DNA from: Roseivivax marinus
GTDB taxonomy: Bacteria > Pseudomonadota > Alphaproteobacteria > Rhodobacterales > Rhodobacteraceae
Reading direction: 5' to 3'
DNA: 64,000 bases
Assembly (NCBI RefSeq): GCF_900109705.1
Contig: NZ_FOAI01000010.1
Location: 1-64,000, forward strand
Shown here: positions 1 through 2,801 of the stretch, piece after piece
Layout of the letters: each line of letters starts with the position of its first letter
Position numbering within the stretch: position 1 is the first letter of the stretch
Position numbers and translations under genes: made by a program
Notes under the pieces: model-generated
Told to the model about the DNA's origin: nothing
The model's input: only the letters and a program-made list of their open reading frames with translations
Databases searched by the model: none

Positions 1-76
1 CGGACCGGATATTCCTTGTTTTGCTGACCAAAACGGCTTTGGCGGTGCCTGTAACAGGAACAAGCTCGCGAAGCGC

Positions 77-166
77 GTCCTATCACCGGCACCACGGAGA
101 CCTCCTAAGCCATTGCCGAAGATCAGCTTTTCGCTGTGATTAGCAAAGGCGTAGAACATGTCGGAG
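77..166. repeat. Left arm of a perfect 90-bp inverted repeat
   Basis: This 90-bp stretch is the exact reverse complement of 2654-2743. On the plus strand it begins with the last 18 nt of tRNA-Thr (GTCCTATCACCGGCACCA, 77-94), continues through the region that lies upstream of the integrase gene in the right arm, and ends six bases after the ATG start (158-160). Identity stops abruptly on both sides. The flanks (1-76 and 167-270) hold no recognisable gene, and the 5' part of the tRNA is not present here. It is therefore a partial tRNA copy plus a duplicated integrase leader, in inverted orientation. Confidence 0.95.
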
Positions 167-274
167 CGCCAGGCCGGCGGTACTTCGCCTTCCGGCTTCG
201 CCCTTTTGGAGCTGTATCACTCTAAGGCTAGCGTGGCATATTGCTCTTTATTGGGTGACAGGAAAAATTGTTAA
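158..274 (+). pseudogene. Short ORF made by the duplicated integrase start
   Basis: The left repeat arm contains the integrase ATG, its upstream AAAGG-like ribosome-binding sequence and the first three codons (M-S-E). After the repeat ends at 166 the frame runs on for 35 further unrelated codons and stops at 272-274, overlapping the end of the HNH gene on the other strand. It is most simply a by-product of the repeat: the start region of the recombinase joined to non-homologous sequence. No function is proposed. It may be transcribed if the repeat carries the integrase promoter. Confidence 0.35.
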
Positions 275-1338
275 TGTGGCCACTTGGCTCTTCCATAGTG
301 TTCCTGGCGATGGCAGTTGGGACATACCGCAGCGGCGTTTTCTACCGTATCAGGTCCATTCTGTGACAGTGGGACTTTGTGATGGACTTCCAAGAAAGGG
401 CTGCCATCGGAAAGCCGTTCAAAAGGTGCGTTCTTTCCGCAACTCTCGCATACACCATTAGCTCGGTACAGTACCTCAGCAATTACGTCCGGGTTCCTCT
501 GGTAAGCTGTTGCCACAATCCTCTGCTTGCCCGGTTGGCTTGCTGCCGTCTCTAATCTCTTTCTTCTTTCTGTAGCATCCATTCGTTGAGACGCTTTAAC
601 CTTATGATGCAATGACGACTCCACGTCCGTGATATACGCTATTTGGCCCATACCATCGTCCCAACTAGCTAGGTCAAACCACTTTGAGCCATCTTCCTCG
701 GATTGAATGGACAGTAGAAAAAATCGTCCATAATAAGTGAAGCGACTACTGCTTGCCTCTCTGACAAAAGCCAACACGGGCTTTTGTGGGTTATTTATTA
801 TCGCAGCATTATCCCGATAACTTTCACTAAAGTTTCCACTTATTGCTTTCATGAAGTATTTGAGTCTTTTTCGGCTTTCGATCCAGCTATTCTCATAAGT
901 GCCGCCGCTTAGTGTTGCCTTGATTGCGACGAAGTCAACTGAACCGGCGCCATCCCAGACAGGTAGAATGCCACCACTCCTTAAATCATAGCTACCGCAA
1001 ATCGCGTGGATCATTCGAGTGGAATAGTCCATTCCAACTTGCAGATCATCCTTTGTAAGCCGATCTTCCAGTTCGTTCGCAAACTTTCTCTCAAATTCCG
1101 GTAGTATTTCTGTGATAGTCGTAATGCCTAGTCGCACTTGTTCTTCGAAGACAACCGGACTCTGCGATTTATCAAGAAAATTCAGAAGTTCCAAGAGGTT
1201 GCCAGTGTGGGACATCTCGGTTGCCCACACCCTGAAATTCTTGGCAATGTTTTTGGGCTTCTCACCAATTTCCGGATGGTTAATCGTGGGGTCGAACAAC
1301 TCATCACACACGAATTTAATTGCTTGATCGACAGACAT
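271..1338 (-). CDS. HNH endonuclease (McrA-like), island cargo
   Basis: A 355-residue protein ending in a treble-clef HNH nuclease domain. CxxC (about 297-300), the HH pair (about 319-320), N334, and CxxCH (about 339-343) are all visible, so the catalytic and zinc-binding residues look intact. The N-terminal 290 residues are not a recognised domain. The middle part (about 130-245) vaguely recalls target-recognition regions of modification-dependent restriction enzymes, which is inference only. Start choice: the ATG at 1336-1338 has AGGTG six bases upstream. An in-frame GTG at 1345-1347 would add three residues but lacks a ribosome-binding site. The gene is AT-richer than the chromosome around it and lies tail-side of the integrase inside the tRNA-Thr island, which suggests horizontally acquired restriction or anti-phage cargo. 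Confidence 0.85.
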   Translation of the reverse strand: MSVDQAIKFVCDELFDPTINHPEIGEKPKNIAKNFRVWATEMSHTGNLLELLNFLDKSQSPVVFEEQVRLGITTITEILPEFERKFANELEDRLTKDDLQVGMDYSTRMIHAICGSYDLRSGGILPVWDGAGSVDFVAIKATLSGGTYENSWIESRKRLKYFMKAISGNFSESYRDNAAIINNPQKPVLAFVREASSSRFTYYGRFFLLSIQSEEDGSKWFDLASWDDGMGQIAYITDVESSLHHKVKASQRMDATERRKRLETAASQPGKQRIVATAYQRNPDVIAEVLYRANGVCESCGKNAPFERLSDGSPFLEVHHKVPLSQNGPDTVENAAAVCPNCHRQEHYGRAKWPH

Positions 1339-1492
1339 CTTCAGCACCTATTTCAGCTACGGTCGACTGCGCCAGAGACATACAAGCGGCTCGGGCTTGC
1401 TTTCGAACATTTGCGGCTAAGTGAATTTCTTTAAATGGACCTGTCAATCATGTCTTGCATGATCGGTCATGTTCGTTAGCTATGTAGTAATA

Positions 1493-2662
1493 TTACTGCA
1501 TGGCTAATTGGAGCCATTTTCTCGGCACGAATACGTTATAACCCGTACCGTAGCTGTGGCCGACGCCCTCGGTCTGCCAACCGCCGATATGGTCCACGAT
1601 ATCCGCAGGGCATTCCACAGCACGGAGTCTGTCTCGCATGGCATGGCGGAACCCGTGCATGGTGACGGTTTCACCTACGGTCGACTTGATCCACTTGTTC
1701 AAAGCCGCACTAGCGGAGTTGGCGTTCGTGGCCTCGCCCTTGTTGTATCGAGGGAAGGCAAACTCTCCGGACTTCCGTGTCGCCAAGATACGCTGTGCGG
1801 CCCACAGTGATGATCCGACCAGAGGAACAACTCTTTCACTCCCCTTCGTCTTCAGCCTGCGCCACGGGCGGGGAACGATCTGAACGGCAAGGCTGCCTTC
1901 ATCGCATTCAATGATGTCTTCACGGAGAATGCCCGCTGCTTCGGCTAGTCGCATGCCGGTGTCGGCCACCAAAGCCACAAGCCACCGTGCTTCATCGTCA
2001 AGTTTGTAGCACCGGGTCTGAATGGTCCGGATATTCGCGAGGGAGATTGGCTTCCGATCCGAGACACCCGCCTGACGATCATAGTAAATCTTGGCGAAGG
2101 GGTTAGGGATCGACAGCCCAGCTTCACTGGCAGCGAAGTTGAAGACAGACCTCACCGTCCCAATCGTCCTTGCGATGCTGCTGCCCGACAAACCACGCTC
2201 AATCAGGCTATCCCTCAAGGCATTGCCGTCAGCCTTTGTGTAGTCGGTAAGGGGTTTGTCTCCGCAGACGTCGATAGCATAGCCACAGCACCGCTCAGCA
2301 GCCCGTTTGAAGGTGTCTACCTTCCCGGTACCTTTAAGCCGAAGGTACACAGAAACCCCGTCAGACAGCGTCATGCAGTCGGTGGTGACGGGAAGCGGCT
2401 CTATCGGCCTAGTTCCGCCTTGCCTGAGCATGTGCTTGCCCGGGATGTCGGCCTTCTGCGAGCGGAGGAAGTACCAGTATTCGTCCAACTTCATGGCGGC
2501 ACTGGCTGATCTTGCCCGAGCCACGGACTGACTTCTGGTTCGCAGAGAATAGGAGATTTTTCCGGACGAGTAGTGGCCCCTCAAGTCACGTGGCACACGC
2601 CGAACGAAGTAAAATATGCCGTCTTTTTGGAAGAGGTGGGGGGCGGATTTGTACTCCGACAT
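1493..2662 (-). CDS. Tyrosine recombinase / site-specific integrase
   Basis: A 389-residue phage-type integrase. The N-terminal part (1-70) resembles the arm-binding region of tRNA-targeting integrases, and a SAM-like core-binding domain follows (about 95-190). The catalytic domain has R238 (in TGMRLAE), a beta-hairpin Lys (271 or 273), H336-x2-R339, W362 and the probable nucleophile Y371. All catalytic residues appear present. The ATG (2660-2662) lies inside the right arm of the 90-bp inverted repeat and only about 64 bp from the tRNA-Thr 3' end, the normal placement for an integrase that uses a tRNA gene as attB. An HNH nuclease gene lies downstream, separated by a 145-157 bp gap in which I see nothing. 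Confidence 0.93.
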   Translation of the reverse strand: MSEYKSAPHLFQKDGIFYFVRRVPRDLRGHYSSGKISYSLRTRSQSVARARSASAAMKLDEYWYFLRSQKADIPGKHMLRQGGTRPIEPLPVTTDCMTLSDGVSVYLRLKGTGKVDTFKRAAERCCGYAIDVCGDKPLTDYTKADGNALRDSLIERGLSGSSIARTIGTVRSVFNFAASEAGLSIPNPFAKIYYDRQAGVSDRKPISLANIRTIQTRCYKLDDEARWLVALVADTGMRLAEAAGILREDIIECDEGSLAVQIVPRPWRRLKTKGSERVVPLVGSSLWAAQRILATRKSGEFAFPRYNKGEATNANSASAALNKWIKSTVGETVTMHGFRHAMRDRLRAVECPADIVDHIGGWQTEGVGHSYGTGYNVFVPRKWLQLAMQ

Positions 2663-2743
2663 GTTCTACGCCTTTGCTAATCACAGCGAAAAGCTGATCT
2701 TCGGCAATGGCTTAGGAGGTCTCCGTGGTGCCGGTGATAGGAC
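2654..2743. repeat. Right arm of the 90-bp inverted repeat
   Basis: Exact reverse complement of 77-166. It covers the integrase start codon, the whole spacer between integrase and tRNA-Thr, and the last 18 nt of the tRNA. The tRNA 3' end is the usual crossover region for such integrases, so this arm probably includes the attachment core. A tRNA-integrated element normally has att copies as direct repeats. Here the visible second copy is inverted. Confidence 0.95.
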
Positions 2744-2801
2744 TCGAACCTACGACCCCATCATTACGAATGACGTGCTCTACCAGCTGAGCTACACCGG
2801 C
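2726..2801 (-). tRNA. tRNA-Thr(CGT)
   Basis: A 76-nt cloverleaf including encoded CCA. The acceptor stem GCCGGTG/CACCGGC is perfect, D-stem GCTC/GAGC, anticodon stem CGTCA/TGATG with loop TTCGTAA (anticodon CGT, reading ACG threonine codons), and T-arm GTAGG-TTCGAGT-CCTAT. The gene is intact even though its 3' end coincides with the integrase-proximal repeat, so insertion restored the tRNA end. It sits between the island and hemY. Confidence 0.97.

Follow-up and report, generated by a model that had tools for sequence, protein, structure and literature searches.

Tyrosine recombinase elements at tRNA genes of Alphaproteobacteria keep a second, inverted attP inside the integrated element

At the left end of a 64,000-nt stretch of Roseivivax marinus DNA (positions 1 to 64,000 of contig NZ_FOAI01000010.1, here contig C11; the whole stretch is called the window below), an integrase gene next to a tRNA-Thr gene is enclosed by a long inverted repeat. 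We find that this segment belongs to a family of integrative elements that carry an additional attachment site of their own (attP) within the integrated DNA. In the usual scheme, integration consumes attP, leaving attL and attR. Here the integrated order is tRNA, core-L-int-L'-core'-R'-cargo-R-core, chromosome, where int is the integrase gene, L and R are the arms beside the core, and primes mark inverted parts. L'-core'-R' is a second complete attP, inverted and retained in the integrated element, contrary to the usual scheme. This architecture is firm; as to the purpose of the second attP, isomerisation or amplification by the integrase in the course of replication is the leading, though unproven, reading.

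A repeat search of the window returned arms at 74-166 and 2654-2746 (93 nt, 99% complementary, spacer of 2487 nt), within which 77-166 and 2654-2743 read as a perfect 90-nt inverted pair, far beyond chance. ARAGORN places tRNA-Thr(CGT) at 2726-2801 on the minus strand, so the 3' end of the tRNA lies inside the right arm, which continues from there over the opening codons of the gene for a DUF6538 tyrosine recombinase. Since each arm extends 6 nt past an ATG (2660-2662 minus, 158-160 plus), the start codon of int lies within the repeat. An initial annotation of this DNA had described the inverted, att-containing copies and the start codon within them, and was right on both. Position 1 of the window is the first base of C11, in a genome of 39 contigs. 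The features are as follows:

1..77, plus strand: R' arm, its outermost visible part, as the contig begins here; reads toward the core; identical to C29:1-77 and aligned with the R arms of complete relatives
78..95, plus strand: core', the tRNA-Thr 3' end in inverted copy, within the second attP; the same 18 nt at C29:78-95 and 2725-2742
96..166, plus strand: L' arm, ending 6 nt past the ATG at 158-160; perfect reverse complement of 2654-2724
150..157, minus strand: predicted integrase arm-type 8-mer GTTCTACG in L', read from the sequence with the motif family taken from relatives; putative binding site
271..1347, minus strand: open reading frame for an HNH protein of 358 aa, part of the integrase module (Pfam HNH, 4.3e-13)
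1493..2662, minus strand: open reading frame for the integrase, 389 aa (Pfam DUF6538, 3.5e-19, and Phage_integrase, 1e-12; alignment)
2654..2724, minus strand: L arm, from the core to 6 nt beyond the int start codon (repeat search and reading)
2663..2670, plus strand: predicted integrase arm-type 8-mer GTTCTACG adjoining the int start codon, at the L end of the window; putative binding site
2725..2742, minus strand: core of attL, the tRNA-Thr 3' end; the same 18 nt as 78-95 and C29:78-95
2726..2801, minus strand: tRNA-Thr(CGT), intact, the integration target (ARAGORN)

The other end of the element was traced through contig C29 of the same assembly, whose first 95 bases equal window positions 1-95 and which then diverges into other DNA, with a thioredoxin-like gene (named by reading) after the core. 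In both contigs the tRNA 3' end occupies bases 78-95. Because C29 starts with window 1-95 and continues into other DNA, a direct right-hand att copy exists; C29 would comprise the R end of the element, the core and then, presumably, chromosome. C11 carries R', core' and L', that is an attP, unlike the ordinary att on C29. The initial annotation had taken a direct att copy as the sign of an ordinary island: the direct copy was found (C29:78-95), but the island is not ordinary, having an internal inverted attP besides. In a comparison of the 39 contigs, overlaps of 95-99 bases with another end occurred at 46 of the 57 contig ends not reading N (over the bases compared, ten contigs and one end of another read as N). 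The shared start of C11 and C29 is thus the usual mark of a repeat in this assembly, and R' and R are therefore copies of each other over at least 77 bases; R' of the window is visible over 77 nt only. That C29 and C11 are joined through one element is suggested by this shared sequence. The 2.5-kb segment of the window, which the initial annotation regarded as the element, is only the integrase module: R and a core lie on C29, and complete relatives measure 5.1-13.4 kb. The missing cargo was not found; no contig with overlapping ends has two identical ends, and a weakly informative search of the window's own genome with a 636-aa protein of the relative in Ruegeria sp. TM1040 gave no match. Nor was an empty site obtained for the window; the tRNA flank and the C29 flank match different contigs in the genus relatives where both were found.

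The architecture recurs widely. As a rule the integrase module consists of a DUF6538 tyrosine recombinase and at most one small gene. An integrase scan of named genomes gave 12 loci, 11 of them good, and by reading, in 9 of these 11 L and the core are repeated in inverted form behind int (in L031 to the contig end only), with R' visible behind the inverted copy in 7 of the 9; the two loci outside the 9 are L034, where L' is no more than begun, and L036, where it is absent. A family search found a relative at E <= 1e-60 in 23 of 394 genomes. Of 41 integrase rows examined, 25 have a spanning inverted repeat of at least 50 nt, 97-100% identical. Two pairs of these 41 rows are the same locus (L030/L045 and L033/L042), and among the 25, L044 was counted as 50 + 26 nt and L055 surrounds a partial integrase. 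Two further rows, L047 and L061, gain a spanning repeat once longer DNA is read, and of the remaining 14, ten are truncated or interrupted or run into a contig end. Searching the class with a profile returned 10 of 385 genomes, with the repeat in 13 of the 19 loci read (88.7-100% identity) and a more diverged one at another, L206; a phylum search at E <= 1e-50 returned 5 of 398, all Alphaproteobacteria, and a search of the genus of G611 (one genome) yielded nothing further. Counted by anticodon, the copies that have both the repeat and an intact tRNA occupy twelve tRNA species, namely Thr (3), Leu (2), Arg (2), Gly (2), Phe, Ser and SeC. Because the doubled attP is spread over these twelve tRNA species and over seven Alphaproteobacterial families (as defined in GTDB, the Genome Taxonomy Database, in the class-wide search), with arms alike within each element, it is probably functional. 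An accidental second insertion in the opposite direction, an alternative raised in the initial annotation, is hard to reconcile with so wide a recurrence of the layout and with the matching of arms in each element.

Some loci depart from the common form. L035 (9910-11331) is a solo integrase module at tRNA-Phe, core-L-int-L'-core' with arms 100% identical, followed by DNA without a recognisable R'. L068 and L069 (G045:C1:427500-459499) are two family elements face to face, at tRNA-Thr and tRNA-Leu, the second of which also carries an extra C-terminal integrase fragment.

Such a repeat is not a general property of tyrosine recombinase loci. As a control, five host genomes were searched with Pfam PF00589. 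Of the 58 matches, 30 were taken as loci, 28 of them outside the family; none of these 28 had a spanning inverted repeat of at least 40 nt, the longest being 23 nt. The arrangement is unusual, as the initial annotation had said, and a chance origin of the repeat was rejected on the length and identity of the window's repeat and on these control figures. The two family members among the 30 control loci, L247 and L252, were also without a long repeat within the stretch examined; L247 (G777:C1, about 560775) adjoins tRNA-Leu, and 3.4 kb were examined there.

The left copy in the window stands at the very start of a contig, as an assembly fold-back might. The same architecture occurs, however, in the closed megaplasmid of TM1040, in the single-contig genomes G045, G611 and G777 and in many separate assemblies, and the 95-base overlap between C11 and C29 is usual for this assembly and expected for the repeats R' and R. 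An assembly artefact, which the initial annotation had put forward, was therefore rejected; we regard its probability as negligible. In 20 of the 41 integrase rows the contig stops within 1 kb of int on its 3' side, and in 1 of 41 it does so on the 5' side; a repeated R' would be expected to give this pattern.

Seven elements of 5.1-13.4 kb could be read end to end, listed here with the length of the inverted repeat flanking their cargo:

Ruegeria sp. TM1040 element: 12,770 bp, at tRNA-Phe, on a closed megaplasmid; cargo repeat 1148 bp
G200 element: 12,822 bp, no intact tRNA by ARAGORN; cargo repeat 3183 bp
G045A1 element: 8,980 bp, at tRNA-Thr; cargo repeat 686 bp
G045B1 element: 7,968 bp, at tRNA-Ser; cargo repeat 729 bp
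L204 element: 5.1 kb, no intact tRNA by ARAGORN; cargo repeat 394 bp
L208 element: 12.8 kb, no intact tRNA by ARAGORN; cargo repeat 304 bp
L209 element (genome G611): 13.4 kb, at tRNA-Arg; cargo repeat 291 bp

All seven carry direct att copies at both ends, and in all seven this second inverted repeat surrounds the cargo, at 95-100% identity. The internal site consists of R, core and L in the TM1040, G200, G045A1 and G045B1 elements, the core being 16-19 nt of the tRNA in use; the internal sites of L208 and L209 show small differences. Three elements that have the L repeat and lie in single-contig genomes (G777a, G777c and G045A2) showed no third core within the stretch examined, so that their far end was not reached. 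That the element inserts as a unit is confirmed by an empty site for L209: the DNA to its right directly follows an intact tRNA-Arg(ACG) in 6 of the 8 relatives' loci inspected, out of 20 returned (L254, L256, L259, L261, L262 and L265). Of the other two, L260 has a partial tRNA and L255 an element-like junction.

The cargo and the small genes of the integrase module vary. In TM1040 each cargo repeat holds an identical BRO-family gene, and together they enclose a type I restriction-modification system. The 3183-bp repeat of the G200 element (L074, L073) is 100% identical, and a complete 633-aa gene lies in each copy; the repeat also gives the two large calcium-binding-type cargo genes a common C-terminal part. 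L208 (4626-13498) carries genes matching MzaB to MzaE, the MzaE match extending over two open reading frames, together with a cytosine methylase, and the cargo of L204 includes two transporter-like genes (by reading). In the window, the HNH gene sits between the integrase gene and the left repeat arm; its product matches PADLOC mREase_IV (4.8e-25) over residues 268-353 only, which is the HNH domain. The same position is occupied in L028 by a 136-aa gene, GIY-YIG-like by eye, and in G045A1 by a hemerythrin gene.

With short repeated motifs on both sides of the core, both copies of the site resemble complete attPs. In 9 of 19 elements R' contains two identical 8-mers, spaced 12 bp apart and located 91-121 bp from the core, and in the same 9 the 8-mer recurs at the L end adjoining the start of int:

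GGTCTACG: L030, L032, TM1040, G331 and G045A1
GTACTACG: G200
GTTCTACG: G076; also in L of the window
GGTCTACC: G558 and G495

In the window, L026, L029 and L033 the contig ends before the R' pair could appear. A fixed-pattern search found no matching set in L028, L035, G045B1, G592, G611b and G777b; by eye, R' pairs of other or slightly different sequence are seen in L028, G045B1 and G777b. The letters of the 8-mer differ between elements and change in step on the L and R' sides. The 8-mers thus behave as expected of integrase arm sites, the role that we predict for them.

The arms also evolve in concert. In 31 elements chosen for having both L arms (redundancy was not formally removed), an element's own two L arms are 91-100% identical over the whole arm, with a mean of 99.2%, and in all 31 no arm is closer than the own partner; between elements, L arms average 62%, with a maximum of 93%, over the 60 nt beyond the core. 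At L206 (G777:C1, about 1640031) the integrase has a stop codon and the flanking repeat has diverged to 79%, against 88.7-100% elsewhere. This one case fits integrase-dependent upkeep of the arms.

Several members carry replication-type genes. A protein of 633-636 aa, with helicase-like Pfam matches at sub-threshold scores only, is common to TM1040 and G200 (39% identity) and is also present in G331 and L030. The G045 elements encode a protein of 1077-1091 aa with a sub-threshold ResIII match (tested on one), and L209 encodes an AEP primase/PriCT/DUF5906 protein, PriCT being below the cut-off. Tandem repeats in the cargo, considered as counterparts of the STB site of the yeast 2-micron circle, were rejected as they lie inside coding sequence (of a TPR protein; the G200 repeats are coding by reading).

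We propose that these are integrative elements with two inverted attPs which the integrase recombines on an excised circle, causing it to flip and possibly to amplify, a reading to which we give slightly less than an even chance. The direct cores at the two element ends (cores 1 and 3) would allow ordinary excision, while cores 1 and 2, and likewise 2 and 3, are mutually inverted. On the excised circle two inverted attPs (R-core-L) would separate the int region from the cargo and replication region, a topology shared with the yeast 2-micron plasmid and its Flp recombinase, and the integrase, acting between them, would invert one half against the other and never delete. If such an inversion took place during replication by the element's own helicase or primase, the replication fork could be turned round and amplification might follow, in the manner of 2-micron double rolling circle replication, which Flp brings about. 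Copy correction would keep the arms and cores identical. More broadly, and with somewhat greater reserve, the family may represent class-wide integrative replicons in which the inverted attP pair and the element's own integrase isomerise and amplify the excised circle through replication coupled to recombination, as a bacterial counterpart of 2-micron able to enter tRNA genes.

A number of observations weigh against this proposal. The integrase gene starts beside the tRNA in all 39 rows that have a visible tRNA and is reversed in none (integrated copies, at least one pair being the same locus). If both attPs were used equally, or if the int module flipped freely, about half would be expected reversed; the one-sidedness may arise because selection favours int being expressed from the side of the tRNA, or because the attPs are used unequally. 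Across the family the int module segment has a single orientation in the integrated copies compared, where a phase-variable invertible segment would be expected in both, and inversion of the integrase segment, as envisaged in the initial annotation, is not supported. Flipping of the cargo was considered from the position of the helicase gene, found in TM1040 at the far R but in L030 and G331 at R'; this was downgraded because a helicase fragment is also present at R' in TM1040, so that repeat contraction explains the position too. No free circle was seen among the genome-search matches inspected, and L204 has no recognisable replication gene (by reading). No repeat was found at L034, L048, L051 and L067, which encode near-full integrases, nor around int in 5 of the 19 class-search loci; one of these five, L212, ends 92 bases past int. 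Finally, the likeness of the arms could be due to gene conversion by RecA alone.

The last point is also part of a different view of the second attP, namely that both sites are kept for integration, one being a spare or convertible attP for re-integration or a change of tRNA target, with the arms maintained by RecA conversion and no amplification. RecA-type conversion would suffice for arm identity, and repeat lengths differ between elements. Moreover, cores and arms vary jointly: the L arms of G045A2 (Leu) and G370 (Thr) are 92% alike beyond the core, with different tRNA cores in both copies. Integration through both attPs, however, predicts int in both directions at the tRNA, against the 39 rows to 0, and this view leaves unexplained the repeat of up to 3.2 kb on the cargo side; we consider it rather unlikely.

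The internal attP might instead be a docking site for swapping or adding cargo modules in integrated elements. The cargo is indeed diverse, including type I restriction, Mza-type defence genes, transporters and sugar genes (by reading) and a TPR/sulfotransferase protein, and extra genes occur in the integrase module (the HNH gene of the window, the 136-aa gene of L028 and the hemerythrin gene of G045A1). Docking predicts extra cores, yet no fourth core was present where searched, in TM1040, G200 and G611b (G611c showed one core at that threshold), and a second attP is not needed for cargo exchange, which makes this account improbable. A little more improbable still is that the L/L' repeat acts at the RNA level, the ends of the int transcript pairing over the start codon and blocking translation when the element is integrated. 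In the window the repeat does stop 6 nt beyond the int start codon at either end, and in many relatives it ends near the int start, but the edge of L falls at the predicted integrase arm site as well, and RNA pairing would explain neither the inclusion of the core, nor R', nor the second repeat flanking the cargo.

These elements make it possible to test whether 2-micron-like amplification coupled to recombination occurs in bacteria. The repeat also has a practical consequence: it explains why draft contigs so often end just behind these integrases, and the breaks hide the cargo, defence genes included, from island surveys.

We recognised no description of this layout in the literature searched, from which subscription papers were mostly absent, and DUF6538 was without mention in that literature. 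The elements resemble other tRNA-integrating islands in that int lies by the tRNA, the core is the tRNA 3' end, direct att sites bound the island and the cargo includes defence and metabolic genes; unlike those islands, they keep a second complete inverted attP inside, and a second inverted repeat flanks the cargo. SEs, as far as the accessible part of the source describes these (PMC10214605), are likewise cargo-carrying elements that do not conjugate, with tyrosine recombinases and with inverted sequences at their ends. SEs carry intA, tfp, intB and srap with imperfect inverted repeats of 13-19 bp, are reported from Gammaproteobacteria and leave no empty site, whereas in the TM1040 element a single integrase is annotated and the repeats measure 85 and 1148 bp. 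Tycheposons, likened here by a secondary description only (PMC10872708), share the tRNA border, the tyrosine recombinase, the cargo and a host range of aquatic bacteria. In the genome of herpes simplex virus 1 (HSV-1), ordered ab-b'a'-a'c'-ca according to the accessible part of PMC3147054, unique parts likewise lie between inverted repeats; here too the end cores are direct and the internal core inverted, a likeness of layout only that implies no kinship. A further comparison is with the yeast 2-micron circle (Flp/FRT), in which, in the same partial source (PMC3147054), the recombinase lies in one unique region and two inverted repeats with recombinase sites split the circle. The bacterial elements likewise have a tyrosine recombinase in one of two unique regions and, in 7 of 7 complete elements, inverted repeats with the site; unlike 2-micron they integrate at tRNA genes, and no circle, inversion or amplification was seen.

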